Shown here piece by piece: positions 34,487 through 52,174 of a DNA stretch of 64,000 nucleotides (position 1 is its first letter; each line of letters opens with the position of its first letter). Both the position numbers and the translations under genes were made by a program. Source of the stretch: Bradyrhizobium manausense (GTDB taxonomy: Bacteria > Pseudomonadota > Alphaproteobacteria > Rhizobiales > Xanthobacteraceae); the NCBI RefSeq assembly GCF_001440035.1, contig NZ_LJYG01000047.1, positions 179,862 to 243,861 of the forward strand, in the 5' to 3' direction. The notes beneath the pieces were generated by a model that did not search any database, was not told where the DNA came from, and saw nothing but the letters and a program-made list of their open reading frames with translations.

Positions 34487-34566
34487 CGAAGCGTCCGGTT
34501 GAAGCACTCTATCGCGCGTCGTGCCGCGGCCTCCAGATGCACCGCGGTACCCCGGACATCAACTGC

Positions 34567-35487: not shown

Positions 35488-35521
35488 GGTACGCAGAACT
35501 CCAGTTCGGGACGGCTCGGAC

Positions 35522-35678
35522 TCAAGACGAACGACAGGGCATGGTTCCGACAGCATGCACGGGCCCACAAGACGATTTTTCACGCCGGCTATCGACTCTT
35601 TTGTTCTTGTTATGTTCTATTGAGGCATCACGGGCCGACCTGCGAGCTGGCGCATGCCGAACCCGAAGGAGACGGATA
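35522..35678. repeat. Direct repeat copy A (about 157 bp), ku side
   Basis: Closely matches 51671-51830 in the same orientation, including GACAGGGCATGGTTCCGACAG-like sequence, the SOS box and the start of a small gene. In this copy the small gene's ATG reads ATC, so the plus-strand gene is dead here while ku on the minus strand is intact. The remaining 35679-35920 holds no recognisable gene. Confidence 0.85.
35603..35617. promoter_or_regulatory. LexA (SOS) box, GTTC-N7-GTTC
   Basis: GTTCTTGTTATGTTC matches the alphaproteobacterial LexA direct-repeat box exactly. It lies 116 bp upstream of ku. It is identical to the box at 51755-51769. Confidence 0.65.
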
Positions 35679-35920
35679 CGGTGTGGATCGAAAACAATGC
35701 TGCGGCGCGCCATTCAGAATGAAATTGCGAACTCTTATGTAATTGAAATTTCGACATAATTTCCAATGGCGCCATCTCCGGAAGTCTCGTCTTCAATGTC
35801 AGAAACCTGGTTGATGCTTTTTGGCGCGCCCGCGGCAAGGCCCTGGTAGGAGATTCTTGCGCAGCTGCCGGCGAGCCGCGTGACGCATTCATCGGAAAAT
35901 GGGATCGCATCAACAATGAA

Positions 35921-38900
35921 TCAGCCGAGCTCATCGAGCAACATTTTCGCCAGTTTTAGATCAAGCGTTTCGAAGCCCTCTCTAAACCAATCATACGCCT
36001 CCCCGAGTAATCCTCGGGCCCTGGCGCGCTCGCCTCGATCGCGCCAAAGCCGCGCCAGGCTCATGGCTGCCCGAAGCTCCCAGGATTTAGCCTGCTGTTC
36101 CCGCGCAACCGAGAGCGCGCGCTCGAAATGCGCTTCCGCGTTGCGGATATCGCGCTCGGGCGCAAGCAATGCGATTTCCCCGGCGATTCGACGAACATCG
36201 GATTCACACCACCTTTCTCCTGTCCCTTCAATCGTCGCCAAAGCTTCGGCCATGTATCGCCCTGCATCGTCGAACCGGCCGAGTTCCGCCATCGATTTTG
36301 CCATATGCGCTACATACCAGGGAACGAAAACGACAGAGCCGCTCGATCGCCAGGCCGCTATGCCTGACGGGATCATGGCGATCGCATCCGAGGCTTGACC
36401 GGTCAGCGCCCGTATGGCGCCACGGTGCATCATGCCGCCGCCTCTCCATTGCGCGGCGTTCTTCTCTGTCGCCATCGGAATGAGCTCGTCGAGATGCGCG
36501 TCGGCGGCTTGGTAATCCCCGCAATGGATAAAAGCATATGACGTGAAATAGAGCGAATACATCAAGGGTACGCCCTGACCGACCTCGCGCGCTTCTGCGA
36601 CCGCACTTTTCGCATCAGCGAGCGCGGCTCGGGGATATCCGAGCATCCAGCGGATCCACGAACGATAACAGAGCGCGGCGACCCGGATGTCCTGACCAAA
36701 TCGCGCCGAAAGCTGGCGATGTTCCGCGGGATTATAAGACGCGATCGCGCGATCGAACTGTGTGAGCGCTTCCGGAAGATTTCCTATCGTCGCCTGAGAT
36801 ACGCCAACGAGCCGTTGCCCAAGCATCTGCAGCGTAGCTTCCTTCTGCTCTTCGGCGCGCTCCAGAAATTGCGCAGCGAGCTCGGTCACAGTGCTCGCGT
36901 GAAAACCGTTAAAGTTCGCAACCCAGAAGCTATAAAGCACCGAGAACAGCAGAAATGGGTCCTCTGGAGCCTCGCCGCGCGTCTGTGCCTGTTCAATGAG
37001 CGTACGCGCACGAAGTGCGGCCGCTTTGGTTTCCGGTGCGCCATAGCCCCGGAAGTGCATGAGCGGGGTGATCAGCGCGACCTGCAACTTGATTTCCTCT
37101 CGCCTGAGAGCCGGTGTCGATGGCAAGGATGCAATCAAGGTCAGGGCCCGGTTGAGTTGCTCGGCGGCTTCGGGCAGGGCGGCCCGCTCCAACGATCGTT
37201 GTCCGGCCTTCGCCCAAAGCCCCGCCGCCTTCTCGATCAGCCCGGCATCAGAGCAATGGCGTGCCAATAGCTCCGGCTGACGCTCCACGATATCGGCAAA
37301 TCGGCCTTCGAGCGCCTCCACGATCTTTTTGTGCAACGCGCGGCGGTGTTCGCGCAACAGGGTGCTGTAAGCCGCGTCCTGCACCAAGGCGTGCTTGAAG
37401 AGGTAGTGCGCGTGCGGCGGGACGCCCTGACGGAACAACAAGCCGGCACTGATGAGCCGATGCAGAGCACTATCAAGGTCTGCCGGCGGCTTGCGGGCCA
37501 CCGCCTCGATGAGCGCATGTGAGAACTCGCGGCCGATCGCCGCTCCAATTTGCGCAAGCTCTTTTGCGGAACCAAGCCGATCGAGACGCGCCATCAACGA
37601 GGCGTGAAGTGTTGCGGGAATTTCGAGTTTCGGTGACGGAATCGCAGCCGTCGTTCGTCGCGCGTCTTCCTCGCTCTCCGCCTCCAGTATCGCCTTGGTC
37701 ATTTCCTCGATGAACAATGGAATGCCATCAGTCCGATCGATCAGGTCTTCGCGGATATCAGGCGAGAGAAATTTATTGCCGACAATTCGGTCAATAACGG
37801 CATCGATGTCGCGCCGACCGAGCCGATTGATGGTGACGGCTGTCACGTGTGGAAGGCTAATCCAGGGCGGCTGGAATTCTGGCCGGAAGGTAATGACGAG
37901 CAGAACGCGAAGCGCCTCGATTCGATCCACGATGCGGCCAAACAGTTCGAGACTGGTCGGATCAGTCCAGTGAGCATCTTCGAAGATCATCAATACAGGC
38001 GCGGATCGTGAGAGCGCCTCGATTTGCTTGAGAAGCGCCTCTAGGGTCTTTTGTCGACGTTGCTGCGGGTCAAAGGTCAGCGCCGGATAGCGGCCGTCGT
38101 TCGAAAGAGACAGCATTTCGGCCAGCAGCGCTGAATCCATTGGCGAAGTCGCGCTCTGCAAAAGCAACGCATCAAGCCGATCGAGCTTCGTCTTTATGGT
38201 GTCGTCGTGCTTCAATCCGGCGGCGCGCTCAAAGTGACCGATGACCGGCGAAAGGGCACTGTTCGTGCGCTGCGGCGAACAGAAGCAGCGTAGCCGTGCA
38301 TGCTGTTCCTTGCTGACCTCTTCCAGCAACGCTGCCGTCAGGCGAGATTTGCCGATGCCGGGTTCACCGCAGACCAGCACTGCCTGACCTTCGCCATTCT
38401 TTGCTCTCGACCAGCGCCGCAATAATAATTGCGATTCCTCGTCCCTTCCGACAAGCGACGTGAGGTCGCTGCGGTGAAATGCTTCGAACCGACCTTCCAC
38501 GGACGTTGGTCGAACCGCGGCCCAAACCTGCACCGCACCAGCAATGCCCTTCAATTCATTGAGACCGAGATCTCTTAGTTCGAAGAGATTGCCGAGAAGC
38601 TGTCTCGTTGCGTCCGCGATTACGACCATGTCCGGCTCAGCGAGCCCTTGCAGCCGCGCCGCGAGGTTCGGCGTCTCGCCGACAATGCCGCGCTCTTGCG
38701 CCTGTCCGGAGCCAACGAGATCACCGACCACAACCAGACCCGTGGCGATGCCCACGCGGGTCTGCAACGGCGTGCCGGTCTTCAGTTTCGTGACTTCCGA
38801 GACCAGCTCCAATCCTGATTGTACGGCCCTTTCGGCATCATCCTCATGAGCTTCGGGATAGCCAAAATAGACAAGCACGCCGTCGCCCATGTATTTTGCG

Positions 38901-39274
38901 ACGAAGCCGCCGTAGCGCTGAACAACTTCCGTGACGCATTTCTGGTAGGCCGAGATCAGCTTGCGCAGGTCTTCGGGGTCCATCCGCGTCGACAGAACCG
39001 TCGAGCCCACGAGATCACTAAACAGCACCGTGACTTGCCGCCGTTCGGCCGAGGTCTCTGCAACCGCTGCAGGCGACGGCGGCTGTCCCAGGGGTTCCTT
39101 TGCAAGCCCTGCAATGGCCGCGAGAAGCTTGATCCGGGCGCCGAGCGGAAGACCGAGCTCGCGCAAGTGATCCTGGGTCAGATGCGGCAGGACCGATTCA
39201 TCGATCGCGTTGTCGCGAAACGCCGCCTCGAAGCGCTCGAGACCGTTGTTCCGCAGCAAAGTTCCGAGGTCCAT
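35921..39274 (-). CDS. SAM / class III adenylate cyclase / AAA ATPase / TPR signalling protein
   Basis: A 1117-residue multidomain protein. Residues 1-60 form a SAM domain (LLRNNGLERFEAAFRDNAIDESVLPHLTQDHLRELGLPLGARIKLL). About 78-250 is a class III nucleotidyl cyclase (RRQVTVLFSDLVGSTVLS with the metal Asp; YMGDGVLVYFGYP). About 270-650 is a MalT-like STAND ATPase (VGRDEESQ; Walker A GEPGIGKS; IFEDAHWTDP). The rest is TPR-like helices. It probably makes cAMP in response to an unknown signal in the cytosol. The ATG at 39,274 begins the SAM domain; the open frame further upstream is not conserved-looking. Confidence 0.9.
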   Translation of the reverse strand: MDLGTLLRNNGLERFEAAFRDNAIDESVLPHLTQDHLRELGLPLGARIKLLAAIAGLAKEPLGQPPSPAAVAETSAERRQVTVLFSDLVGSTVLSTRMDPEDLRKLISAYQKCVTEVVQRYGGFVAKYMGDGVLVYFGYPEAHEDDAERAVQSGLELVSEVTKLKTGTPLQTRVGIATGLVVVGDLVGSGQAQERGIVGETPNLAARLQGLAEPDMVVIADATRQLLGNLFELRDLGLNELKGIAGAVQVWAAVRPTSVEGRFEAFHRSDLTSLVGRDEESQLLLRRWSRAKNGEGQAVLVCGEPGIGKSRLTAALLEEVSKEQHARLRCFCSPQRTNSALSPVIGHFERAAGLKHDDTIKTKLDRLDALLLQSATSPMDSALLAEMLSLSNDGRYPALTFDPQQRRQKTLEALLKQIEALSRSAPVLMIFEDAHWTDPTSLELFGRIVDRIEALRVLLVITFRPEFQPPWISLPHVTAVTINRLGRRDIDAVIDRIVGNKFLSPDIREDLIDRTDGIPLFIEEMTKAILEAESEEDARRTTAAIPSPKLEIPATLHASLMARLDRLGSAKELAQIGAAIGREFSHALIEAVARKPPADLDSALHRLISAGLLFRQGVPPHAHYLFKHALVQDAAYSTLLREHRRALHKKIVEALEGRFADIVERQPELLARHCSDAGLIEKAAGLWAKAGQRSLERAALPEAAEQLNRALTLIASLPSTPALRREEIKLQVALITPLMHFRGYGAPETKAAALRARTLIEQAQTRGEAPEDPFLLFSVLYSFWVANFNGFHASTVTELAAQFLERAEEQKEATLQMLGQRLVGVSQATIGNLPEALTQFDRAIASYNPAEHRQLSARFGQDIRVAALCYRSWIRWMLGYPRAALADAKSAVAEAREVGQGVPLMYSLYFTSYAFIHCGDYQAADAHLDELIPMATEKNAAQWRGGGMMHRGAIRALTGQASDAIAMIPSGIAAWRSSGSVVFVPWYVAHMAKSMAELGRFDDAGRYMAEALATIEGTGERWCESDVRRIAGEIALLAPERDIRNAEAHFERALSVAREQQAKSWELRAAMSLARLWRDRGERARARGLLGEAYDWFREGFETLDLKLAKMLLDELG

Positions 39275-39744
39275 GACGGAATTCCAGCTGCCTGCGTCTG
39301 CGCGCGTATTGTGAGCCAAATCTGCCGCCGGATCACGGATTTTGGCTATGCAGTATCGGCAAGCTTTATGTTGCGTCGCGCCATTTGTCGCAGCGCGCCG
39401 AGACATAGGCACCAAGCTTACTGATGAGCATGAAGCATTCTGCAGGCAGATCGCGTGACAGAACCAGGACAGGCGATTGGTAGTTGCAGAGAAATCCAAG
39501 CGTTCGCGAGTTGCCCTTGTATCCGGAATGGCCCCCAAGGCGGCGCGGAAACGGCACATACCGCTCCCTCTGCACCCCACCATCCGCCGCCGTAACGTCA
39601 CAATTCCTGCATTGATCGGGAGTAGTGATCGACATAGGATACCACCGTTGTTTTAATTGATGTTTTTGGAAGCACGCAGTCTGCTGGTGCGCAGTGGCTT
39701 TGCACTGACTAGCTGCCGACTTTTCTGCCCGGGGGAGGACAGAA
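39275..39744. other. Intergenic region between cyclase and AraC genes
   Basis: The 470 bp between these divergent genes include open frames on the minus strand (to 39,635) without any family motif or RBS. It presumably contains the promoters of both flanking genes. Nothing else is supported. Confidence 0.4.
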
Positions 39745-40752
39745 ATGCATTGGAGCAGAGTTCTCAGGTTTGCCGATCCTCAGGCAAGTCAGGCCGCCGT
39801 TCAGGGCGGTCAAGTCGAAATCGTCCCCATGGCAAGGGGGCGTTTCGACGTCGAGATGACGCAAATCGGCATAGACAGGGTGTGGATGCAGCGCTTCAAC
39901 GTGGCTCTGCCGCAAGTCGCCACAGCCACGACTGCTCGCGACCGCAAGGGCATTGGCTTTCTCATTGATTCCAACGCATCGGAGCTGCAGCACTGCGGCA
40001 TGGAGGTCACCCCAAACGACATTATCGTTGCGGGCTTCGATGTGCGGCATCAGCGATCTTCGTCCGACCTTCACTATGGAACCATGTCTGTTCCGGTGGA
40101 GGATTTTCCTCAGTTGTGCAGAACGATCATTGGCCGCGAGTTTCTCGAAGAACCGCACGCCGTGATTGTTCGTCCGGATCCCGCCTTGATGTCGCGACTG
40201 CTAAAGCTGCACAGGACCGTCGGGCAACTTGCCCTCGACACGCCCGACATACTGGACCTGCCCGATGTGCGCCGGGCATTGGAAGAACAACTGATTCACA
40301 TCATGGTTCGGTGCCTTGCCGACGGCGCCAGCATCGAAGCGACAGCAGGTGGCCGTCGCCATGACGCGATCGTCACGCGGTTCGAGGAATTTCTGGCCGC
40401 GAATCCTGACCGGCCTCTTTACCTTACCGAAATCTGCGCAGCCATCGGTGTCGCGGAGCGTACACTTCGCGCCTCCTGCGAAGAACACCTCGGCATGGGA
40501 CCGATCCGTTATCTGACGTTGCGCCGAATGCATCTCGTGCGCCACGCATTGTTGAGCGCTGATCCATCGAATTCGACCGTCACTCGCATTGTGACGAATC
40601 ATGGCTTTTGGGAGCTTGGAAGGTTTTCGGTTGCCTACCGCACGCTTTTTGGGGAGACGCCATCAGAGACATTGAGGCGTGCTGAGCCGGCCGCAATCGA
40701 CCTCAATCGTCCATCATCGCTGCCGGCCGCTCAAGCTCTCGCCTGCCGCTGA
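39745..40752 (+). CDS. AraC-family transcriptional regulator
   Basis: A 335-residue regulator. The C-terminal AraC HTH pair is clear: YLTEICAAIGVAERTLRASCEEHLGMGPIRYLTLRRMHLVRHALLS then TVTRIVTNHGFWELGRFSVAYRTLFGETPSETLRR. The N-terminal 220 residues are an unclassified sensor domain. Starts with GTGG-rich GGGGGAGGACAGAA before the ATG. It precedes the sulfatase gene and is a paralogue of the AraC protein at 43,686. Two TGCATAG-type sites lie just downstream, in front of the sulfatase. Confidence 0.9.
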   Translation: MHWSRVLRFADPQASQAAVQGGQVEIVPMARGRFDVEMTQIGIDRVWMQRFNVALPQVATATTARDRKGIGFLIDSNASELQHCGMEVTPNDIIVAGFDVRHQRSSSDLHYGTMSVPVEDFPQLCRTIIGREFLEEPHAVIVRPDPALMSRLLKLHRTVGQLALDTPDILDLPDVRRALEEQLIHIMVRCLADGASIEATAGGRRHDAIVTRFEEFLAANPDRPLYLTEICAAIGVAERTLRASCEEHLGMGPIRYLTLRRMHLVRHALLSADPSNSTVTRIVTNHGFWELGRFSVAYRTLFGETPSETLRRAEPAAIDLNRPSSLPAAQALACR

Positions 40753-40760
40753 AGCCTCCC

Positions 40761-40776
40761 TGACGAACCTGCATAG
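40761..40776 (+). promoter_or_regulatory. Putative AraC-regulon site 1
   Basis: TGACGAACCTGCATAG, one mismatch to the TGCCGA-N3-TGCATAG pattern found at 40875, 44652 and 49361. It lies about 226 bp before the sulfatase start. Confidence 0.4.
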
Positions 40777-40874
40777 TCCCCAGCCCGGGCCCAGAAATCG
40801 CGCGATTAGCACACGATCAGCGGCTCTCCGGCAAGCGGTCAGCAGCTCTTCGCGCCGCGGCAGTGATCAAATCC

Positions 40875-40890
40875 TGCCGAATGTGCATAG
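40875..40890 (+). promoter_or_regulatory. Putative AraC-regulon site 2
   Basis: TGCCGAATGTGCATAG, exact match to the shared pattern, 112 bp before the sulfatase start. The length of 16 bp suits one AraC-type monomer with two HTHs. Confidence 0.5.
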
Positions 40891-41001
40891 TACGGCACGC
40901 CGGCGTTGATGTAGTTTTCGCCGGACTGCCTTAGCGAAATCGTGGCCACACGAAATCAGGTCGCCGCATCTCTCGTTATCCGAAGACGATGGAGGTTGGG
41001 A

Positions 41002-42513
41002 ATGAGCAGAGACCTATCCGTTGGCTTGCTGGCATTGCTTTTGGCGGTGACGGCGACTGCTCCGGCATCCGCACAACAACCCCAAAAGCCAAACGTTGTT
41101 TTCATTCTCGCCGATAATGTCGGGTACGGCGATTTGGGGTCCTATGGCGGCGGAGAGTTGCGTGGCGCGCCAACGCCGCGTCTGGACCAATTGGCCCGCG
41201 AGGGATTACGGCTAACCCAGTATCTGGTCGAACCAGGCTGCACGCCGTCACGGGCCGCTCTTATGACCGGCCAATACTCGATCCGGAGTGGCTTATCACT
41301 TGTCGCTCTCGAGGGGACCCCCAATACGCTTTCCGCCCGTGCCTTCACCATGGGCGAGCTGTTCAAGGGCGCGGGCTATGCCACGGCAATTTTCGGCAAG
41401 TGGCATCTCGGCGGCGAACCGCAGAGCTTGCCGACTGCGCACGGTTTCGACGAGTTCTACGGCATCCCTCCGAATATTTCTTGGGACTCGGCAACCTACG
41501 TCAGCAGTATGGATCTGACGCATTCAGTCGCGGCCACTCCGGCTGAGCTTCTAGCTCGTGGGCCGCAAATCGTTGAAGCGACGGCCGGGGGAGCGCTGCG
41601 AGCCGTAAAGCCATTCACACCAGAGGTTCGCGCAAACATCGACTACGAACTGGTCGACAAGTCGATTGACTTCATGCGGCGGCAGAAGGCGGCAGGTAAA
41701 CCGTTCTTTCTCTATTTGCCGTTTTCTATGGGCCACGTGCCGAACTTGCCGTCAGCACAGTTTAAGGGCAAGTCGCGGATCGGCAACTACGGCGACAAGA
41801 TCATGGAGGGGGACTATCACGTCGGCCAAATCCTCGACACGTTGAAAGAACTTGGCGTTGACGACAGCACTATTGTCGTCTTCGCCTCCGACAACGGGCC
41901 GTTTGGTCAGGCCGGACGGGAGTTTGGCAATGATGGGACGCCCGATATGGGCAATTCCGGTCCCTTCCGTGGCGAGCTGGGGGAAGTGACGGAGGGCGCA
42001 ATACGGACGGCGGCCTTCGTCCGCTGGCCCGGAAAGGTCCAGCCGAACACCACCTCATACGCGATGTTCTCGATCATGGATTTCATGCCGACTTTCGCCC
42101 ACATTGTCGGTGGCACGATGCCAACTGATCGGCCTATCGACGGCGTGGACCAGACCGACGTGCTGCTAGGCAACAGCGCGGCGGGACATCGCGAAAGTCT
42201 CCTGAGCTTCATTGGTGCCGATCTGGTCGCTGCCCGATGGAAGCAGTGGCGCATTTACTTCACCGATATTCATCCGACCGGCGACGGACCTCAGCGGGAG
42301 CCCGGCGTTTTCTCGGCCAGTGCTCCGATGGCGGGCTACCCGAAGGTCTACAACATCGAGATGGACCCGCACGAGGACCTCATCGTGGGAGGAGTGTTTG
42401 CCTGGGTATCGGACCCTGCGCTCAAGCCGGTCTTTGAGTATTTGGAGACGGTCAAGAAATATCCCAATCCGCCCGCGCCGAACATCACGCAGTTCCATGG
42501 TGGCCGTGGTTAA
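41002..42513 (+). CDS. Arylsulfatase-type sulfatase, exported
   Basis: A 503-residue alkaline-phosphatase-superfamily sulfatase. A signal peptide (SRDLSVGLLALLLAVTATAPASAQ) precedes PNVVFILADNVGYGDLGSYGGG (metal site). The formylglycine motif C-T-P-S-R occurs in EPGCTPSRAALMTGQYSIRSGL, and GKWHLGG and FASDNGPFG follow. It would hydrolyse sulfate esters in the periplasm, with the Cys matured by a formylglycine-generating enzyme encoded elsewhere. GGAGGTTGGGA before the ATG at 41,002 sets the start. Control by the AraC regulator next door is likely from the shared motif. Confidence 0.92.
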   Translation: MSRDLSVGLLALLLAVTATAPASAQQPQKPNVVFILADNVGYGDLGSYGGGELRGAPTPRLDQLAREGLRLTQYLVEPGCTPSRAALMTGQYSIRSGLSLVALEGTPNTLSARAFTMGELFKGAGYATAIFGKWHLGGEPQSLPTAHGFDEFYGIPPNISWDSATYVSSMDLTHSVAATPAELLARGPQIVEATAGGALRAVKPFTPEVRANIDYELVDKSIDFMRRQKAAGKPFFLYLPFSMGHVPNLPSAQFKGKSRIGNYGDKIMEGDYHVGQILDTLKELGVDDSTIVVFASDNGPFGQAGREFGNDGTPDMGNSGPFRGELGEVTEGAIRTAAFVRWPGKVQPNTTSYAMFSIMDFMPTFAHIVGGTMPTDRPIDGVDQTDVLLGNSAAGHRESLLSFIGADLVAARWKQWRIYFTDIHPTGDGPQREPGVFSASAPMAGYPKVYNIEMDPHEDLIVGGVFAWVSDPALKPVFEYLETVKKYPNPPAPNITQFHGGRG

Positions 42514-42754
42514 TCTTTATACTGCACTTGTCTGCTAGCGGCCCGTTTGAGACGTGTGCGACTGCGTCGAGCAATGTCCGAGTTCGAAGGCGAAGCGGAG
42601 GGCAGATGCGCGCGCTGAGTTTTTCTCAGTTTGACCCTGAGCAGCCGCGCTGCCAAGAGAAGGTCGTCCGTGGCGCGGCCGGAAAAATACATCGTAGTTG
42701 CTCCTTCCCCGGCCGGAATGCGCAGGTCGGGGTCGTATTTTTGGCGACTCAGCC

Positions 42755-43519
42755 ATGGAAAATCTGACGCACTACCCTCCGCTTTTGTTCGTTGTTTCCC
42801 TTGTGGCGCTTTCAGTCGTTGCGGTCGCAGGATCCTGGCTACGCAGGCATTATCCGACCGCCAACCACGAGCAGAGCGAACATCTTGGTGTCATCCTTGC
42901 GGCTACCCTGACGTTGCTCGGCCTGATCATCGGTTTCAGCTTTTCGATGGCTGCCAATCGTTATGATCAGCGCAAGAATTTCGAGGAGGCGGAAGCCAAC
43001 GCCATTGGAACCGAAATATTACGTGCCGATTTTCTTCCCGCCGATGCCGCAAACGTCCGCAAGCTCCTTGCCGAGTACACGGGCCTGCGCATCCAGTTTT
43101 ATCTCAACAAGGATGACAACCAACGCAAGCAGATGGCCGAACGGACGACCCGGTTGCAAGCCGCTCTTTGGTCTGCAGTCCGACAATCCTCGGCTGCACA
43201 GCCGACGCCCGTGGAGGCGCTGGCAATCGCCGGAATGAACGATGTAATTAATTCGCAAGGCTATACACAGGCAGCGTTTTGGAATCGGATCCCCACTGCC
43301 GCATGGTTTTTCATGGCGATCATTGCGCTATGTTCGAATGCGTTGATGGGCTACCGAAGCGGCAAGGCCGGACCAAGGCTGCTGTTCGTGCTGCCGCTGA
43401 TCGTTTCGTTTGCCTTCCTCCTGATCGCCGATATCGATGCACCTCGCCATGGCCTGATTGAGGTGAGGCCGCAAAATCTTGAGAGCCTAGCGAACTCGCT
43501 CGGCGATATAGCACACTAA
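42755..43519 (+). CDS. DUF4239-like (bestrophin-like) membrane protein
   Basis: A 254-residue membrane protein. Two N-terminal TM segments (LLFVVSLVALSVVAVAGSWL; LGVILAATLTLLGLIIGFSFSMAANRYDQRKNFEEAEANAIGTE) match the DUF4239 start. Two or three more lie at the C-terminal end (TAAWFFMAIIALCSNALMGY; LLFVLPLIVSFAFLLIADID). The related bestrophins are anion channels, but a channel role is not shown here. The ATG at 42,755 is chosen because it directly precedes the first TM region. It sits between the sulfatase and the second AraC gene on the same strand. Confidence 0.7.
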   Translation: MENLTHYPPLLFVVSLVALSVVAVAGSWLRRHYPTANHEQSEHLGVILAATLTLLGLIIGFSFSMAANRYDQRKNFEEAEANAIGTEILRADFLPADAANVRKLLAEYTGLRIQFYLNKDDNQRKQMAERTTRLQAALWSAVRQSSAAQPTPVEALAIAGMNDVINSQGYTQAAFWNRIPTAAWFFMAIIALCSNALMGYRSGKAGPRLLFVLPLIVSFAFLLIADIDAPRHGLIEVRPQNLESLANSLGDIAH

Positions 43520-43572
43520 AGCCATCCGACGGGCAGCCGGCGCTCCACCGCATCTGCCATCCACCATCGAAG

Positions 43573-43588
43573 TTCCGAAACCGCATAG
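43573..43588 (+). promoter_or_regulatory. Putative AraC-regulon site 3 (weak)
   Basis: TTCCGAAACCGCATAG differs from the shared pattern at two fixed positions. It is 98 bp before the second AraC gene, so could serve cross- or autoregulation. Confidence 0.3.
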
Positions 43589-43685
43589 TCGAAAGTCGCT
43601 AACTGCCTGATGCTGTATCCGCGGCGAGGCCAGAGCGGTTCAAACAGGTCGCAAGAACTGTCCGCCGGCTCGACAGGGCGAGAAA

Positions 43686-44636
43686 ATGGCAGATGGTGGT
43701 ACACTCACCTTTACGCATCCGGACGGCTACGCGGCCGCCATCAGCGACGCCCGGCTCAACCTCACGATAACGGGAGCAGGGGATTTCAAGGCCCAGCTCA
43801 CGTGGCTGCGATTGCAACATCTGAAAATCTATCGATGTTGCGAAAGCCTCCCGCGCATTGGCTATATCTCGCTCTCTCCCGGACTGGCTTTCCTGTCGTT
43901 TCCCATCAAGGCGACATCAGCCATATGCGGTGGACTTTCCGTTCAAAAAGGCGACATCATTTTTTACAGTCCGGGCGAGCGCGTGCACCAACGATTCGAC
44001 GGTGGATGCCAATGGGGTCTGATCGTCCTATCGGCACAGCATTTCGCTGATTGCAGCCGGGCATTGGTCGGGAGATCGTTGGTCTCACCCGGCGCGAGCG
44101 GCCTCTGTCACCCTTCGCGAACGGAAATAGTGAGGTTTCGGCGTCTGTTCGGACAGGCCTGCCGTCTCGCCGAAAGCAGAACGCAAATCGCTGAACTCCC
44201 CGAGGTCGCGAGAGCACTGGAACAGGACATGCTTCACGCCATCGTTCATTGTCTCCCAAGCGAGCATGACGTGGTCAAAACACACAAGGCGAGAAGCCAT
44301 CACGCAGCCGTCATGGCTCGTTTCGAGGAAGCGCTCAGCAAACTTGCTGATGACCGGCCTAGCATGTCCAGGCTTTGCGCAGAGATCGGCGTGGCAGAGC
44401 GAACTCTCCGGATGTGTTGCGCCGAATTTCTCGGCATCAGCCCCACGCGCTACCTTCTGCTTCAGCGCCTGAACAGGGCCCGTGTCGCGCTACAACGAGC
44501 CAACCCTTCGACAACGAGCGTTGCGGAGATCGCCCGGGACCATCAATTCCTGGAGCTCGGGCGCTTTGCGGTGACGTATCGCATCACCTTTGGTGAATCG
44601 CCTTCCGTCACGCTGCAGCGGGATCCCCGAGCCTGA
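43686..44636 (+). CDS. AraC-family transcriptional regulator
   Basis: A 316-residue regulator with AraC HTH repeats at the C terminus (SMSRLCAEIGVAERTLRMCCAEFLGISPTRYLLLQRLNRARVAL; TSVAEIARDHQFLELGRFAVTYRITFGESPSVTLQR). It is a paralogue of the 39,745 product, sharing IGVAERTLR, the LGI/LGM-x-P-x-RYL segment and FLELGRF-type residues. The N-terminal sensing half (about 200 residues) is weakly similar. It is followed by an AraC-type site and the cytochrome gene. Confidence 0.9.
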   Translation: MADGGTLTFTHPDGYAAAISDARLNLTITGAGDFKAQLTWLRLQHLKIYRCCESLPRIGYISLSPGLAFLSFPIKATSAICGGLSVQKGDIIFYSPGERVHQRFDGGCQWGLIVLSAQHFADCSRALVGRSLVSPGASGLCHPSRTEIVRFRRLFGQACRLAESRTQIAELPEVARALEQDMLHAIVHCLPSEHDVVKTHKARSHHAAVMARFEEALSKLADDRPSMSRLCAEIGVAERTLRMCCAEFLGISPTRYLLLQRLNRARVALQRANPSTTSVAEIARDHQFLELGRFAVTYRITFGESPSVTLQRDPRA

Positions 44637-44651
44637 GCGGAATGCCGAACT

Positions 44652-44667
44652 TGCCGAAAGTGCATAG
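44652..44667 (+). promoter_or_regulatory. Putative AraC-regulon site 4
   Basis: TGCCGAAAGTGCATAG, exact match to the shared pattern, 162 bp before the multiheme cytochrome gene and directly after the second AraC gene. Confidence 0.5.
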
Positions 44668-44828
44668 CCGCAAGGGAGGGCTTCACCCAGTATTGCATGG
44701 TCGATTTCTGTCATTTCGCGATGAGCATCCCAGAGACATGAGGGTCAATATCTTGCATCCGCCTAGCTTGGGCGGATCTTCATTGCTCAGTTGTTCCATC
44801 GCAAGGAGCAAAAGCAATCGAGGACGTG

Positions 44829-47288
44829 ATGTCGGCCAACAAGCGCAAGTCCGGCAAAACTGACAAGCACCCTCGGCGCGGAGGCATTTCGATGCCGATC
44901 GCCGGCACGACGGATGCCCACAACGCGCCCGCCCGCTCGAAGACACGGGCCGCGCTGTTAGCCGTTCTCGGCGCCATCGCCGTTGGCGCGGTCGCGTTGC
45001 TCGCCTTCAACGGCGGATTTCTCCTGCTCGAAGGACTACGCGCTCACAATGCAGCCCCTGTCCTTGCCTTCGTCGGGAGCGAAGCTTGCGGCGATTGCCA
45101 CCAGGCGGAAACTGCGTTGTGGAAGGAGTCACAGCACAAGCATGCCATGCAGCACGCGACGAGCACTTCTGTGCTTGGCGATTTCGACAACGCAACCTTC
45201 GAGTATTACGGCGTCGATTCCCGGTTTTTCAAAAAGAACAACAGATTCTTCGTCGAGACGGATGGTCCAGACGGCAAGCTCGCAACCTTCGAGGTCAAAT
45301 ACACGTTCGGAATCGATCCCCTTCAGCAATACCTGATCGAATTCCCGGATGGCCGCATACAGGCGCTGTCGATCGCCTGGGACAGCCGGCCAAAGGACCA
45401 GGGCGGCCAACGCTGGTTTCACCTTTATCCCAATGAAGAGATCAAGCACGACGACGTGCTGCATTGGACAAGACTCAATCAGAACTGGAATTTCATGTGC
45501 GCGGAGTGTCATTCCACCGGCGTGCGGAAGAACTACGACGCGGACACGGATCGCTTCCACACAACATGGGCGGAAATCAGTATCGGTTGTGAAGCGTGCC
45601 ATGGCAAAGGCTCTCGCCACATCGAGTGGGCGCGCAGCCGGCGGAGCTGGTGGCCTTTTGATAAGGACGAACACCCCTTGAAGGGGCTGGCGGTCTTCCT
45701 CGACGAACGCAACGGCGTCACCTGGCGGCCCGATGTCAAGACCGGCGATCCGCGACGCAGCGCTATTCCTGCAGTGATGCGCAAAGAGGTTGAGACTTGC
45801 GGCCTTTGCCATGCGCGACGTGCCCAACTTTCCGAAGACTGGATACCGGGACAACCATTGTCCGACACCCACCTGGTCTCGATGCTTGCCCGCGGACTTT
45901 ACCACTCCGATGGGCAAATGCTCGACGAGGTCTACAACTATGGCTCGTTCAAGCAGAGCAAGATGTTTGCGGCGGGCGTCACCTGCAGCGATTGCCACGA
46001 ACCCCACGCCGCCAAGTTGCGGGCACCAGGTGACGGCGTATGCCTACAGTGCCACACCGCCGACAAATATGAGGTCGCCGCGCACAGCCACCACGAAGGC
46101 GTAGCGCCGAAGGTCACCTGCGCGTCGTGCCACATGTCGGTCAAGACCTACATGCTGATCGACCGGCGGCACGACCATAGCCTCCGGATCCCAAGGCCGG
46201 ATATCTCCGTGAAGCTTGGTACCCCCAACGCCTGCAACAATTGCCACGCCGATAAATCGGCACAATGGGCTGCGGATGCCATCGAACGTTGGCACGGCCC
46301 GGTCCGCCACGGCTTGCAGAATTACGTCGAGGCATTCCAGGCTTCGTGGAACGACCAAGCTGATGCCGCTTCGCTTCTGGCCCTGGTTGCGGCCAGTCCA
46401 ACAACCCCTCCGATTGCGCGTGCGAGCGCGCTTAGCGAACTTCGCTCGCGGGTTTCGGCAGCCAACATCGAACTCGCTCGCAAGGGCTTGTCCGATCCCG
46501 ATCCGATGGTGCGCGTTGGAGCACTTGATATGCTCGACGACCTGCCGGGCGCTCAGATCTGGCGCTTCGTCTCGCCGCTCCTCTCCGATTCCAGCCGTGG
46601 CGTTCGCGTTCGGGCGGTGTCGGTGCTGGCGGCCGCGCCGACTGCCAGCCAACCCTTTAGTGACCGCGCGGCCTTCGAGCGGGCCGCGGCCGAGTTCATT
46701 GCCGCACAGCGGCTCAACGCGGATCGCCCCGAAGCTCGCACAACGCTCGGAAATTTCTATGCGCGTCGCGGCTCTACGGGCGAAGCGGAAAAAGAATATA
46801 AGGCCGCACTGAGACTTAGTCCTCAGTTCGGGCCCGCAGCGATCAATCTCGCCGATTTGTATCGGCACCTCGGCCGGGATGGCGATGGAGAGAGCCTGCT
46901 GAGGACAACGATTGCGTCATCACGCCCGGACGCCGGCTTGCATCACGCGCTCGGGCTGACCCTGACCAGACAAAAACGGCCCGATGATGCGCTGAACGAA
47001 TTTCGCATGGCCACGGAGCTTGAACCTGGCCGATCGCGCTACACCTATGTTTACGCCGTCGCGCTGCATTCGTCGGGTCGGATCGACGAAGCGATCAAGG
47101 TCCTGAAGGCAAACCTGGTCCGGCATCCGGACGATCGGGACACCATGTTGGCGCTCGTCGCTTTCAGCCGCGACGCCGGAGACATCAGTGCTGCCCTCGA
47201 ATATGCCCAGCAGCTCTCCCGCCTTAGACCGAACGATCGTGATTTGACCCAACTGACCAACGAGCTTCGCGCGCGCCTGGGCCGATAG
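44829..47288 (+). CDS. Octaheme c-type cytochrome with HEAT-like and TPR repeats
   Basis: An 819-residue protein with a signal anchor (AALLAVLGAIAVGAVALLAFNGGFLLL, about residues 40-68), so periplasmic. Eight heme-binding CxxCH motifs follow: CGDCH, CAECH, CEACH, CGLCH, CSDCH, CLQCH, CASCH and CNNCH. The layout resembles the cytochrome c554-type family. A HEAT-like region (about 530-620) and four or so TPRs (about 640-815, with FYARRGSTGEAEKEYKAALRLSPQFGPAAINLADLYRHLGRDG) close it. The role is electron transfer, possibly to a partner held by the TPRs; the partner is unknown. Start ATG at 44,829 behind GAGGA. Confidence 0.9.
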   Translation: MSANKRKSGKTDKHPRRGGISMPIAGTTDAHNAPARSKTRAALLAVLGAIAVGAVALLAFNGGFLLLEGLRAHNAAPVLAFVGSEACGDCHQAETALWKESQHKHAMQHATSTSVLGDFDNATFEYYGVDSRFFKKNNRFFVETDGPDGKLATFEVKYTFGIDPLQQYLIEFPDGRIQALSIAWDSRPKDQGGQRWFHLYPNEEIKHDDVLHWTRLNQNWNFMCAECHSTGVRKNYDADTDRFHTTWAEISIGCEACHGKGSRHIEWARSRRSWWPFDKDEHPLKGLAVFLDERNGVTWRPDVKTGDPRRSAIPAVMRKEVETCGLCHARRAQLSEDWIPGQPLSDTHLVSMLARGLYHSDGQMLDEVYNYGSFKQSKMFAAGVTCSDCHEPHAAKLRAPGDGVCLQCHTADKYEVAAHSHHEGVAPKVTCASCHMSVKTYMLIDRRHDHSLRIPRPDISVKLGTPNACNNCHADKSAQWAADAIERWHGPVRHGLQNYVEAFQASWNDQADAASLLALVAASPTTPPIARASALSELRSRVSAANIELARKGLSDPDPMVRVGALDMLDDLPGAQIWRFVSPLLSDSSRGVRVRAVSVLAAAPTASQPFSDRAAFERAAAEFIAAQRLNADRPEARTTLGNFYARRGSTGEAEKEYKAALRLSPQFGPAAINLADLYRHLGRDGDGESLLRTTIASSRPDAGLHHALGLTLTRQKRPDDALNEFRMATELEPGRSRYTYVYAVALHSSGRIDEAIKVLKANLVRHPDDRDTMLALVAFSRDAGDISAALEYAQQLSRLRPNDRDLTQLTNELRARLGR

Positions 47289-47310
47289 AGGTCAACGGTC
47301 ATCGCGATGG

Positions 47311-48123
47311 TTATTGGCTGATCGCACTCTTGACGCCGTGCCATACTTCGTCCTTCAGCGCGATCAAGGGAGGTGGTGGCAGCGTTACCGGCGCCTCTGT
47401 CCGCTTGATGCCGTCGATGACGAGACTGGCAACGTCGATCTCACCGTCCGTATAGTAGGGATCGCCTTCGCCATTTCGACCAAACAGGGTCGGGCCCGTT
47501 CCGGAAATCTGGAAGAAGTTTTGAACCATGCCCGCGTCACCAAGATCGCGCATCAAAAGATCTCGTTCGGCATCAATGTCGGGCGCAATGTGGTGGGTGA
47601 CCTGCCCGGTGTCACGGCTCAAGCCCACGCCACGATCGAAGGTGACTGAGCCGAGCCAGACCGGGCGGCCGTCGCTGCCTTTTTCGAGGACCATCCAGAA
47701 GCGGACGTGATGTCGCTTGTCGGCGCTTCGACCGTCAGGCTTTTCGAATGCGAGCTCTTCTTTCTTGCCCATGTAGTAGAGCGGGCTGACCGGCGCATCG
47801 TGGTACGGCCTGTCGAGCACAACGCTGCCGATGATTTCGATGCTGGTGCGCAAGGTAATTGGGTCAGCCGGATACCAACCTGCAGAATGCATGGCAAAGA
47901 GGACATCTTGCTTGCTGCCGACGAGGCCGACATTGAGCGCGTCACCCGGGATGTCGCTTGCCGTACGCGTCACCATGGGCAGCGACGCAAGTCCCGGCTC
48001 ATGTTCGTGATGCCTCCACAGGGAAGGAAGCAACAGATAGGCAAGCACCAGATAGGCGACGAGCACGCCCACCAGAATGAGCCACCATCGTTGCCTGCCT
48101 GCAATTTGCTTCATGCGTTGCAA
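47311..48123 (-). CDS. LssY C-terminal domain protein
   Basis: A 270-residue membrane-anchored protein. One N-terminal TM (WWLILVGVLVAYLVLAYLLLPSLW) is followed by a domain with DALNVGLVGSKQDVLFAMHSAGWYPADPITLRTSIEI and DRPYHDAPVSPLYYMGKKEELAFEKPDGRSADKRHHVRFW, the LssY_C pattern. The molecular activity of this domain is not established. It is 72 bp downstream of the SphA-like gene and probably in its operon. Confidence 0.8.
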   Translation of the reverse strand: MQRMKQIAGRQRWWLILVGVLVAYLVLAYLLLPSLWRHHEHEPGLASLPMVTRTASDIPGDALNVGLVGSKQDVLFAMHSAGWYPADPITLRTSIEIIGSVVLDRPYHDAPVSPLYYMGKKEELAFEKPDGRSADKRHHVRFWMVLEKGSDGRPVWLGSVTFDRGVGLSRDTGQVTHHIAPDIDAERDLLMRDLGDAGMVQNFFQISGTGPTLFGRNGEGDPYYTDGEIDVASLVIDGIKRTEAPVTLPPPPLIALKDEVWHGVKSAISQ

Positions 48124-48195
48124 CAGCAGTGTTGCGGCATTCGCCTCGTATGACGTGCCAAGCGGCCGGCTAGGTTCAAGAGGTCAAATGGCCAC

Positions 48196-49266
48196 TCACT
48201 TGGTCACCAAATGCCTGGTCGGCGTCACGGTACTTTCGGGCGGCGCCTCTGAGATCGCGAACGTCAGCCAAGTATTCCAGCCCGACGGCCGGTTTGCCGC
48301 ATCGAATTCGCCGTAGCCCTTCAGGTTCAAATATCCCTGCATCTTTCCGATCGGGAAAATGTACCCCACTTGCGGGCCGATCCCGATAACCCGGGACTTG
48401 AAAGGTCCCAGAATTGGATGTTGGCCGGAATCGGCCGTCACCTGCTGATAGGCGTAGCCGACGAGGCCCACAAAAAACTGTTTTGAGAGAAACTGCGACG
48501 CACCCCAGTCAAAATGAAAATCAATACCGCTCGTATATTGCGTGTCCGGGTTTTTGAAATTGTAGGTGAAGCCGGCCACTCCTGAAAATTCATGCCCCGT
48601 CGCGGGGTTGAGGTAAGTATATCCGCCGCCGACATCGATTGCGCCGTGACCGAGGCCAATGTTGGAGAGCCGGTTCGGGTCATACGCTCCGACCGGAATG
48701 TCCCCTGTCGCGTAGGTCATCCAGTTGTTGACGCCATCATTCCATTTGAGCGTCAGCATCGGAATTAGATCACCCACCGATGTGAGCGAGTCTGATATGG
48801 TTCCCGTGCGCTGCGCCACGATCGGACCAGCCGCGGCCGTCAGCGTCCCCGCAATGCTGGTGTCGAGCCTGCCGAACACTCCCGTCACTCCAGCGGCGAA
48901 TTGGCCGCCCAGCACCGGAGAGGCAAAGGTGTAGGTCGGCGCCAGGAACACCACATCGGCCCGCGCATTCAGATTCGCGTTCAAGCTGACGTTGACATTT
49001 GGCGTGAAGCGACCGATCTCGATTTCCCTGGCGGCGGCGACGCCGCCGGACGCAGCAACCGACGCGTGATAGTAGACAGTCCCCAGCGACCAGCCTGGGG
49101 TCGTCGGGACGGCAGCGAGGCTGCCGAACTGTCCGGGGAACCAGAATGAATTGCCGGTTTCGTCGGCCCTGGCAGGTTGAGCGGCAAGCGTCAGGAAGAC
49201 GGCAAGCGCGCAGACACTCAATTGCTGCCAAGAACCAGGGACCGGCCACGATCGACTACGCTGCAT
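48196..49266 (-). CDS. SphA/MetA-pathway outer-membrane channel-like protein
   Basis: A 356-residue exported protein. The signal peptide (SWQQLSVCALAVFLTLAAQPARA) is followed by TGNSFWFPGQFGSLAAVPTTPGWSLGTVYYH, the start of the Phenol_MetA_deg/SphA family. Alternating beta strands with GAYDPNRLSNIGLGHGAIDVGGGYTYLNPATGHEFSGVAGFTYNFKNPDTQYTSG and a C-terminal beta signal suggest an outer-membrane barrel for a hydrophobic solute. First gene of a minus-strand pair with LssY_C. A shared AraC-type site lies 95 bp upstream. Confidence 0.85.
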   Translation of the reverse strand: MQRSRSWPVPGSWQQLSVCALAVFLTLAAQPARADETGNSFWFPGQFGSLAAVPTTPGWSLGTVYYHASVAASGGVAAAREIEIGRFTPNVNVSLNANLNARADVVFLAPTYTFASPVLGGQFAAGVTGVFGRLDTSIAGTLTAAAGPIVAQRTGTISDSLTSVGDLIPMLTLKWNDGVNNWMTYATGDIPVGAYDPNRLSNIGLGHGAIDVGGGYTYLNPATGHEFSGVAGFTYNFKNPDTQYTSGIDFHFDWGASQFLSKQFFVGLVGYAYQQVTADSGQHPILGPFKSRVIGIGPQVGYIFPIGKMQGYLNLKGYGEFDAANRPSGWNTWLTFAISEAPPESTVTPTRHLVTK

Positions 49267-49360
49267 CTGCCGTCCTCACTTTCCTGCCCCACTAGCCGTG
49301 CCAAAGGACAACCCGGCGTGGGGGCGCACGGGTTAGGAAAGCGAGCACGCGCCGGTTCGT

Positions 49361-49376
49361 CTATGCAAAATCGGCA
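49361..49376 (-). promoter_or_regulatory. Putative AraC-regulon site 5
   Basis: On the minus strand, TGCCGATTTTGCATAG, an exact match to TGCCGA-N3-TGCATAG, 95 bp upstream of the SphA-like start. The orientation relative to the downstream gene is the same as for sites 2 and 4. The remainder of the gap to 49,580 has nothing recognisable. Confidence 0.5.
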
Positions 49377-49580
49377 AAGCTTCCCTCGGTTGCTTTGTTG
49401 CTGCGAGACTGTGTCTCGCGCACAACAGCCACGGACCCTGATCTCTTGCCCGGCAAGCTGCATGCATTGTTTCATTGCCAAGGCTTGCCCTTTTGCCGAA
49501 GATGGGTAGCGCGGCACCCAACGTCTCCTTGGCCTGCCTGAACTCCTGAACGGTGTCCCGATCTTGCAGTGGAGCGAGTC

Positions 49581-49865
49581 ATGAGCCCGCCTCGCTATCT
49601 TGCGATTCTCCTGTTTTTGCTCCTTGCTGCCATGCCGTTGGGGCGTTCCAGGCTTATCGCGAGGGTGGTTGCCGAAACAGTCAAGGACATGCTGGCGGCC
49701 CAGGTTCGCAGTCAGGGAGTCGTATGCGACAAACCCCGGCAAGCAATCCGGGACGCAAAGCGGTCAAAGCCGGATCATGATGTCTGGATACTGACATGCG
49801 AAAACGCGACTTACAGGGTCAGCCGCTATCCCGATCTTGCAGCGAAGATTGAGCGGGTTCGATAG
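49581..49865 (+). CDS. Small exported hypothetical protein
   Basis: A 94-residue protein with a signal peptide or anchor (RYLAILLFLLLAAMPLGRS) and a short polar domain (VVAETVKDMLAAQVRSQGVVCDKPRQAIRDAKRSKPDHDVWILTCENATYRVSRYPD). The two cysteines may form a disulfide. Not recognised. The ATG at 49,581 follows GGAGCGA. Stands alone before a 320-bp gap, which shows no gene. Confidence 0.55.
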   Translation: MSPPRYLAILLFLLLAAMPLGRSRLIARVVAETVKDMLAAQVRSQGVVCDKPRQAIRDAKRSKPDHDVWILTCENATYRVSRYPDLAAKIERVR

Positions 49866-50186
49866 CCTCTCCCTACCTGCAAGATAGGTCGACGGGTTCG
49901 CTATTCGCAGAATGTATAGTTGCAGATCAAGCTTGGATATCGGTCGATGTCGACTTTTACGCTCCTTTGAGACACACCGACCGGCTCCGAAATGTCGGTT
50001 CTGCGGGGAGGATCGGAAATGCTCCGCGGCTACCCAAAACGGCGCGAATGATTTGAACCGGACTTCGCATGGTCCCGAAATATCAGTTCGGTAAGGCCGC
50101 CTTAGTTCCTTACGCAGCGTACCCCCGGACAGTAATATCCCACGTTCAGCGCGTTGGGGCTGGCATGAATATCGAGGGAAGGTTTC
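49866..50186. other. Intergenic region before the TAXI gene
   Basis: About 320 bp without a supported gene on either strand. It presumably holds the promoter of the TAXI binding-protein gene, whose RBS (GAGGGAAGG) is at the end of the region. Confidence 0.4.
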
Positions 50187-51482
50187 ATGGCTGCCAAGGA
50201 ATTTCTGCGAAACAATTGGCCTGCGATCACGATAGGTGCGACCGCCGCCGCAATCGCGTTGGCGGCTATTGTGATGCTGATCAATATGCCCCCACGCACG
50301 GTCGTCATGGCGACCGGTCCCGAGGGAGGCGCCTACCAAGAGCTTGGTAAGCGCTATCGCGCGGAACTTGCGAAGGAAGGCGTAGAGGTGCGACTGATGC
50401 CGACTGCAGGTTCGCCCGAAAACCGGGCGCTGCTGCTCGACCAGCATTCGGGAGTAAGCGTCGCGCTGATCCAGGGTGGCACTATGAGCCAGGAAGATCG
50501 TTCGAAGCTTGCCTCACTCGGAACGCTCTACTACGAGCCCTTGTGGTGGTTCCGCAGGCGCGAGATCCAAGTTGATGGAGCCGCCAATCTCGTGGGCAAG
50601 AGACTGTCGATTGGGCCCGAGGGCAGCGGGACTCGAGCGTTATCGCTCGAATACTTCAAAATCCTCGGATTTGACCAGCAGGTCGGTGAATGGCTAGCCC
50701 TGCCTACGCAAGCTGCTGGAGAAAGTCTCTTGGCCGGTCAGATCGATGCAGTATCGATGGTGGCTGCATGGGACGCACCCGAGGTGCAGCAACTTCTCGG
50801 CGACGAGCGCGTCACCCTCACGGGTTATCGGCGCTTGAATGCCCTTATCGCGCGCCTTCCATTTTTGAGCAAGGTGGTGGTGCCAAGGGGAGTCAGAAGC
50901 TTAGCAAAGGATCTGCCGCCAACGGATGTGACCTTGATCGCAGTGAAGGCCAACTTGATAGTGCGAAACGATCTGCATTCGGCCCTTCAGTACCTGCTGC
51001 TCGGCGCGGCGGAGCATATCCACTCGTCACCGAGTATTTTTCAACGCGCCAATGAATTTCCCGCTGGCGAAGCCGTCGATGTTCCACTGAGCAACGAGGC
51101 ACTGCGATTCTACAAATCGGGGCAGCCTTTCCTGCACGATTATCTTCCGTTCTGGGTCGCGGAGCTGACTGGCAAGCTGTTTATCCTACTCATTCCGATC
51201 CTGGGCGTGCTCTACCCAATGACGCAATATCTGCCTCGCCTATATGACTGGGCGATGCGATCGAAGATATTGCGCATGTACGGAGAACTGCGGCTTCTGG
51301 AAGACGAGATCGCGGACGCCCGACGCACCAAGCGTGATACGAGTGAAATGATCTTGCAGCTCAATGGCCTCGAGGAGCAAGCAAACCGAGTAAAGGTTCC
51401 GATTGCTTATGCGGATATGCTGTACTCTCTGCGAGCTCATATCGACCTCGTACGCGAAAAAAATACGCCGACAATTAGCTGA
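50187..51482 (+). CDS. TAXI-family TRAP solute-binding protein with C-terminal membrane segment
   Basis: A 431-residue protein. The N-terminal helix (WPAITIGATAAAIALAAIVMLINMP) anchors it to the inner membrane. VVMATGPEGGAYQELGKRYRAELAKEGVEVRLMPTAGSPENRALL is the TAXI binding-domain start and GKRLSIGPEGSGTRALSLEYFKILG follows. After about residue 315 is a second TM (GKLFILLIPILGVLYPMTQYLP) and a coiled-coil tail (LRLLEDEIADARRTKRDTSEMILQLNGLEEQANRV). The tail is cytosolic if the first TM is N-in. No TRAP permease is near, so it may be a membrane-tethered sensor rather than a transport partner. Confidence 0.85.
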   Translation: MAAKEFLRNNWPAITIGATAAAIALAAIVMLINMPPRTVVMATGPEGGAYQELGKRYRAELAKEGVEVRLMPTAGSPENRALLLDQHSGVSVALIQGGTMSQEDRSKLASLGTLYYEPLWWFRRREIQVDGAANLVGKRLSIGPEGSGTRALSLEYFKILGFDQQVGEWLALPTQAAGESLLAGQIDAVSMVAAWDAPEVQQLLGDERVTLTGYRRLNALIARLPFLSKVVVPRGVRSLAKDLPPTDVTLIAVKANLIVRNDLHSALQYLLLGAAEHIHSSPSIFQRANEFPAGEAVDVPLSNEALRFYKSGQPFLHDYLPFWVAELTGKLFILLIPILGVLYPMTQYLPRLYDWAMRSKILRMYGELRLLEDEIADARRTKRDTSEMILQLNGLEEQANRVKVPIAYADMLYSLRAHIDLVREKNTPTIS

Positions 51483-51670
51483 AGAACCGGTTGCGCGGCT
51501 TGAACGACCAAAACCCGGCTGAGTCTGATATTGATGCTGTAGACGGCTCCTCCACCGGCGCAAGAGCGCCAAGGAGTGGGCGCCGTTTGAGGCTCCCACG
51601 ATGTGTCGCGGCTCCGAATATTATGTTGGGCGCCGGTTGGGGGGGGCAAAAGCGGCGCCGATCCACAGAT

Positions 51671-51830
51671 TCAAGACGAACGGCAGGGCATGGTTCCGAC
51701 AGCATGGACGGGCCCTCAAAAGGATATTTTTCCACGCCGGCTATCGACTCTTTTGTTCTTGTTATGTTCTATTGGGGCATGACAGACCGACCCGCGAGCT
51801 GGCGCATGCCGAACCCAAAGGAGATGGATA
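51671..51830. repeat. Direct repeat copy B (about 160 bp), SRAP side
   Basis: Counterpart of 35522-35678. Here the small gene on the plus strand keeps its ATG (51,779), while the ku-side sequence stops matching left of 51,671. The segment 51483-51670 upstream is unremarkable and without a supported gene. Confidence 0.85.
51755..51769. promoter_or_regulatory. LexA (SOS) box, GTTC-N7-GTTC
   Basis: GTTCTTGTTATGTTC, identical to the box at 35603. It ends 9 bp before the ATG at 51,779, so LexA would block expression of the zinc-ribbon/SRAP unit. Confidence 0.7.
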
Positions 51831-52174
51831 AGATGGCCGCTCTCGTCGGCAGAAACGTGCCTCGGGAGCCCGGATTGGCTCCGGAAGCTGATCTGCCGCC
51901 GGAATACTGGCAGGCGCTTCTGGACGACCCTCGCGCAGAGAGCAGGTCGGGCCCCTCCGGAGGGGCGCTGCAGTTGAGCCAGATTCCTCAACATATTCTG
52001 AGGGTGGGGTGCCGGCGCTGCGCCAGGGTCATCGAGATTCAGAAGGTCGATGCCGTCCGCCTCTATGGTCGTGAGGCGCTCTGGCAGGATGTCGGGCGGC
52101 GGCTCTTGGACAATACCTGCACGCAGCGGACCGGGCGCCACGAGGAAGACGGCTGCTGGCCTGCGTTCGATTAG
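51779..52174 (+). CDS. Small zinc-ribbon-like protein, SOS-controlled
   Basis: A 131-residue protein beginning TDRPASWRMPNPKEMDKMAALV. The second half has ILRVGCRRCARVIEIQKVDAVRLYG, a CxxC knuckle, and CTQRTGRHEEDGC, so a zinc site is possible. Not a named family. The open frame extends upstream but crosses the duplicated promoter segment; the ATG at 51,779 directly follows the SOS box. First gene of a unit with the next two. Confidence 0.65.
   Translation: MTDRPASWRMPNPKEMDKMAALVGRNVPREPGLAPEADLPPEYWQALLDDPRAESRSGPSGGALQLSQIPQHILRVGCRRCARVIEIQKVDAVRLYGREALWQDVGRRLLDNTCTQRTGRHEEDGCWPAFD

Follow-up and report, generated by a model that had tools for sequence, protein, structure and literature searches.

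The window, that is, the whole stretch of 64,000 nt from the genome of Bradyrhizobium manausense that was analyzed here, contains a ku gene that is divergent from a ZR1-ZR2-SRAP operon only across a segment of 16 kb, with a copy of the same bidirectional control region on either side of that segment. Two separate switches appear to lie in this control region, namely, an EcfG-like motif facing ku and a LexA-type box abutting ZR1, and most likely both halves of the locus descend from joined loci, in which a single region lies between ku and ZR1.

Two halves of a locus and two copies of its control region

The two copies of the control region form a pair of direct repeats of about 165 bp, the left copy at 35519–35683 and the right copy at 51668–51835. 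The E value for the second copy is 1.7e-56. The sequence-only reading had placed near-identical repeats at 35522–35678 and 51671–51830; the repeats proved to be real, but their ends lie a few bases off, and their identity is about 90%. At an E value of 0.001, the repeat sequence was found at four places in the own genome, two of them in the window and two in other ku/ZR1 loci (C16 and C32). The repeat is no chance match, and it does not have the scattered, ku-independent distribution that would have spoken against the sequence-only reading. Both copies contain the same GTTC-N7-GTTC box, GTTCTTGTTATGTTC, at 35603–35617 and 51755–51769 on the plus strand. Four boxes of this form are present in the window versus 2.0 expected, and 18 of 100 shuffles reach four. 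The box alone is weak evidence, and its weight rests on position and conservation.

To the left of the left copy lies an open ku gene (34567–35487, minus strand; Ku, E 2.1e-50; Ku_bact, 303 bits), the frame of which has 306 codons when counted from its ATG (at 35487) and 338 when counted from an upstream GTG. An EcfG-like motif, GGAAC-N18-TT (35524–35548, minus strand), is positioned 36 bp 5′ of this ATG. On the far side of ku is a gene for a metallophosphoesterase (MPP; 34019–34507, minus strand; Metallophos_2, E 1.3e-33), which the closest relatives also have on the left side of the locus. Its orthologue (85–91%) is found beside ku in G071/L083, G067/L085, and G027, and an MPP gene left of ku is a trait of the subgroup of the window, too. 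To the right, the LexA-type box of the left copy now has no ZR1 gene. What is present is a dead ZR1 of the first 19 codons (35627–35683, plus strand), with ATC for ATG at 35627–35629, and homology to the joined loci stops at about its end. In the right copy, the box ends 9 bp 5′ of the ATG of ZR1 (51779–51781), and a ku-type motif, GGAAC-N18-TT (51673–51697, minus strand), is left as a vestige with no ku behind it; the only ku-like match to the left of this copy is one of 16 residues inside the repeat itself. The shared box, the intact ku, the dead ATG, and the missing second ku had all been seen correctly in the sequence-only reading. It is the presence in each half of a vestige of the other, the ku motif on the right and the box plus 19 ZR1 codons on the left, that points to a descent of both halves from joined loci.

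The right copy is followed, on the plus strand, by ZR1 (51779–52174; 131 aa), which contains cysteines and had no match in the family profile searches, by ZR2 (52205–52654; 149 aa), and by the SRAP gene (52657–53385). ZR2 matches Zn_ribbon_4 with 18.2 bits, below the cut-off of 30.3; four of its cysteines (C90, C93, C121, and C124) are invariant in 9 of 9 alignment rows. The description of this side as an intact zinc-ribbon/SRAP unit holds for ZR1 and ZR2, the frames of which are open, but not for SRAP, which is interrupted by a TAG at codon 38 (52768–52770). Cys2 is present, and the sequence downstream of the stop was recognized as a member of the SRAP family (E 1.7e-18). The nearest relatives of ZR1 and ZR2 are CSA207, B. 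niftali, and B. hipponense. The 3′ part of the SRAP gene is nearest to L092 (91%), and over the SRAP frame the identity to B. niftali is 73%. Therefore, the right arm itself appears to be recombinant, and the assumption that SRAP is an orthologue of the same joined loci throughout was rejected.

The joined locus and its two proposed switches in relatives

Joined loci are present in the same genome, which contains six ku genes in total, three of them in ku/ZR1-type loci: at C16 as well as at C32, ku, the box, ZR1, ZR2, and SRAP are joined and the frames, including that of SRAP, are open. The named loci of relatives, mostly Bradyrhizobium, are the best 80 of 181 ZR2 matches. In 57 of these 80 loci, ku is divergent from ZR1, and the box is present in all 57. 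The other 23 comprise seven loci with ku only on the right (among them L101, the ku of which has its own ZR1), 11 with no ku in the stretch examined, one with ku 2.2 kb away, two cut by a contig end, and two without ZR1. Within the genus, ZR1 matches were obtained in 67 of 98 sampled genomes. The ancestral divergent locus ku-box-zinc-ribbon-SRAP that had been postulated from the window, and the genomes that were to be expected from it, with ku directly divergent from ZR1 across one box, are thus borne out.

In B. barranii, B. niftali, CSA207, B. hipponense, and Rc3b, the two halves of the window map side by side, and their overlap (the left half reaching to about 35678, the right half starting at about 51668) is a single block of about 162 bp. 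ZR1 is truncated in B. barranii, which was therefore left out of the ku and the ZR1+ZR2 trees. These trees contained 53 joined loci and the window, and in both of them the three joined loci nearest to the window are L083, L088, and L091 (the marked sets comprise six rows for ku and five for ZR1+ZR2), which supports an orthology of either half to one and the same group of joined loci.

A neighborhood of Ku, SRAP, and two zinc ribbons is already described: neighborhoods with DUF159 and Ku also encode two uncharacterized Zn-ribbon-like domains (Aravind et al., 2013, PMC3765255). As far as the sections of that article considered here extend, these appear to be the same kinds of genes as in the Bradyrhizobium locus (Ku, SRAP/DUF159, and two putative Zn-chelating proteins). 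In the window, however, the locus is split and the control region doubled, and the two switches do not appear in those sections.

The layout of the control region is conserved. In 48 of the 57 joined loci, the distance from the end of the box to the ZR1 start is 9 or 10 bp, and an exact box is found at most 150 bp from ZR1 in all 57 joined loci as well as in 17 of the 18 ZR1 loci that lack ku. The ku start is 111–132 bp away from the box (54 joined loci with a ku start found). Between the box and ku, on the ku strand, GGAAC-N18/19-TT is present in 57 of 59 regions, which are 55 of the 57 named joined loci and both copies of the window. The N18 form was observed in 55 of the 59 regions, compared with 0 to 3 of 59 in 200 letter shuffles; the strict EcfG form with CGTT was found in none of the 59. 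The sequence expected of an EcfG promoter is GGAAC-N16-17-CGTT, or a relaxed form of it, near the start; in the reports on EcfG promoters, as far as considered here, the −35 element is conserved and the −10 element flexible. Among 103 distinct 5′ regions of ku, the motif is present in 101, 89 with and 12 without an exact box (the window and its paralogues are included, and a strain with near-identical records may have been counted twice); among the 18 ku-less ZR1 loci, it is present in none. We read it as a putative EcfG-like promoter of ku's own. The earlier idea that the box drives both sides was not upheld, because the box abuts ZR1, and ku has its own conserved motif.

In Sphingomonas melonis Fr1, Ku is among the EcfG-dependent genes, with GGAAC-N18-TT 30 bp before the start and a log2 ratio of −3.2, and this motif has the same geometry as the ku motif of Bradyrhizobium; in contrast to Bradyrhizobium, the part of that article considered here mentions no divergent SOS-boxed operon (PMC6599016). 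GTTC-N7-GTTC is given as the alphaproteobacterial LexA motif in the relevant part of another article (PMC8565304); the box in the window matches it exactly, and a role of LexA at ZR1 is putative. Upstream of recA of the own genome there is a perfect GTTC-N7-GTTC as well, on the other strand. If EcfG and LexA act at these motifs, ku would answer stress and the right operon DNA damage. In Sinorhizobium, NHEJ is reported to be under the control of RpoE2. Neither a doubled control region nor the two switches together were reported in the open-licence literature searched, which is weak evidence of absence.

The intervening segment and the origin of the split

The segment between the copies (35684–51667) is a mosaic of accessory genes, as indicated by profile searches and genome comparison. 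It encodes a cyclase/AAA protein, an AraC protein, a sulfatase, a bestrophin-like protein, a second AraC protein, a cytochrome-TPR protein, an LssY_C protein, a MetA-type outer-membrane protein, and a TAXI protein, so that the sequence-only reading was right in outline (cyclase, AraC, sulfatase, cytochrome, SphA, and TAXI). In a comparison with 265 genomes including the own, with one or two places scored per genome, the segment was not found as a unit in any other genome. Its parts have different best genomes, with identities of up to 93% for the bestrophin region, 89% for the sulfatase, 88% for AraC, 79% for cytochrome-LssY, and 78% for the cyclase, and the longest match outside the own genome, among the matches listed, is 3.4 kb. 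Matches in other genomes, scored at up to two places each, never extend across a junction by more than 3 bases. Short repeats that are dispersed in the genus lie at the left (35704–35762) and right (51520–51602) edges of the segment. Integrase or transposase families were absent from the nine segment proteins with matches and the two without. For these reasons, namely, the absence of integrase or transposase families among the proteins scanned, the likeness of the parts to different genomes, and the uncrossed junctions, the segment is not favored to be one mobile element.

Both edge genes are transcribed toward the repeats, the SAM-guanylate cyclase-AAA gene (35921–39601, minus strand) toward the left copy and the gene for a TAXI/NMT1-like solute-binding protein (50187–51482, plus strand; 97.5% DNA identity to G069) toward the right copy. 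Thus, the orphan motifs point against the edge genes, and capture of the segment into an SOS or stress regulon is not supported. The region around the TAXI gene (50110–51490) resembles G069 at the same 97.5% and its neighbors do not, a sign of single-gene exchange.

At about 32 kb of the window, the GC content drops from about 64% to about 58%, so that the locus sits in a low-GC, island-like stretch. Near this drop, four direct repeats with a spacing of 45 bp (32411–32671) were observed in a frame with a low coding score. The window contains no tRNA genes, and a tRNA-targeted island was therefore rejected. To the right of the segment, at 61852–63930 and onward at 212–4448 of L169, a Tn7-like set is found in a row, consisting of TniQ-like (24.8 bits, below the cut-off of 27), TniB/TnsC-like, rve/Mu-C transposase, and TnsA-like genes; no convincing ends were found, and Tn7-like ends were rejected as borders of the segment. 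Other observations in this neighborhood are a 1392-aa TPR-CHAT protein (53641–57819) with seven repeats at a spacing of 126 bp (54025–55080) and, to the right of the window (L169, 15516–19395), genes for a SMODS nucleotidyltransferase with an AGS_C sensor, an S_4TM effector, and a Tle1-like phospholipase, which by domain content would be a CBASS-like cluster.

Regarding the split, complementary loss from two closely related copies of the locus, or integration beside a second copy, is the probable origin, and we favor it over one insertion event. A recent opening with target duplication should have left near-identical repeats that group together. The left and right copies of the control region, however, are 90.9% identical, less than the 94.6% between the right copy and B. 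barranii. Alignment-end gaps aside, a comparison with the four closest joined loci gave no derived site common to the two copies. A tree of 13 rows (L228 and L233 left out) that unites them is 2.54 log units worse and, with a p-AU of 0.099, not rejected. We lean, short of a proof, toward the view that the copies are not recent sisters. The lack of common derived sites, together with the mosaic segment, also disfavors a recent clean insertion with target duplication; of the earlier proposal, by which the locus was duplicated or opened, the opening of one locus by one 16-kb segment is thus not favored. Against complementary loss counts that neighboring second copies of the control region are rare, since among 76 other loci only L101 had one nearby (80% identity over 92 bp). 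None of the genomes examined has two full joined copies at the place of the window.

The same rarity would favor the opening of one joined locus in a single event, either by a crossover with circular or linear DNA that carried the ku-ZR1 control region or by an insertion that duplicated a target of about 165 bp. Such an opening is possible, yet doubtful. It would account for the presence of both motifs in both copies, and both copies end sharply, with the roughly 162 bp in common being one block in relatives. In addition, a 9-bp inverted repeat occupies the edges of the segment, TGTGGATCG on the left (35682–35690) and its partner CGATCCACA, abutting the right copy (51659–51667), both given on the plus strand. 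Its chance is 0.00035 within 6 bp of the edges and 0.005 in 30-bp windows, a modest significance for a feature that was noticed before it was tested; together with the sharp block ends it could hint at one insertion. However, the 5 bases outside of the inverted repeat differ, so that there is no 5-bp target duplication, and an opening in one event also has to face the difference of about 9% between the copies with no shared derived site, the mosaic nature of a segment not met as a unit elsewhere, and the lack of integrase and transposase families among its nine proteins with matches. Far less likely is an independent origin of two half-loci that lie 16 kb apart by chance, with nothing split. 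Neither ku regions with the EcfG-like motif and without the exact box (12 of 103) nor ku-less ZR1 loci (18 of the best 80) are rare, and B. barranii has a ku half with a truncated ZR1; however, the same three of the 53 joined loci lie nearest to either half, the ku motif is retained in a right copy that has no ku but is missing from all 18 ku-less ZR1 loci, and remains of the ZR1 side persist in the left copy. A misjoining of two locus copies during assembly is conceivable for a draft genome of 9.1 Mb in 127 contigs, but with copies that are only 90% identical and both placed within one 372-kb contig it is the least credible explanation.

Under the favored origin, a closely related copy of the locus would have arisen beside the first one, either as a tandem duplicate or through the integration of related DNA from outside, in a stretch of low GC content where accessory genes come and go. 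Second copies can come from outside, since relatives of ZR2 are found on 22 plasmid records, 15 of them predicted to be conjugative (in 11, the match spans at least 80% of ZR2, and in 7 the identity is below 60%); phage records had no match to ZR2, and carriage by phages was rejected. One copy would then have lost ZR1-ZR2-SRAP and the other ku, leaving each control region with one functional switch and the vestige of the other, and accessory DNA of 16 kb would have ended up between the halves. A duplication inside the lineage, with a faster decay of the left copy, is possible. As the repeats have an identical run of 42 bp in common, excision by homologous deletion between them is conceivable in principle; the product would again be a joined locus, in which SRAP is interrupted.

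Other broken loci and the meaning of the layout

In L231 (CSA207) and L235 (AS23.2), ku and ZR1 are about 1.9 kb apart, with other DNA inserted at matching positions, similar to the split in the window. The cut in L231 runs between the motifs, so that ku keeps GGAAC and ZR1 keeps the box with no doubling, whereas in the window the region is doubled. By eye, these inserts contain PHB-esterase-like and CopG-like frames. Transposase-like inserts, also identified by eye, are located between ZR2 and SRAP in B. niftali and AS23.2 (L234).

The control region between ku and ZR1, with a stress-switched Ku promoter and an SOS box back to back, may be a natural capture and break point, at which end-joining in the same cell fills breaks with foreign DNA and selection favors products that keep the switch of each half, but we give this idea little credence. 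If true, it would account for the cargo that separates ku from the SRAP operon, as found in more than one strain, and for the doubled control region described here.

The rearrangement itself is a single-genome curiosity. The layout is testable: one conserved intergenic region would combine an EcfG-like promoter for Ku end-joining with a LexA-type box for the SRAP operon, and the natural splits suggest that these two switches can be separated. If this holds true, two repair branches would be under two different alarms, in a genome with six ku genes.
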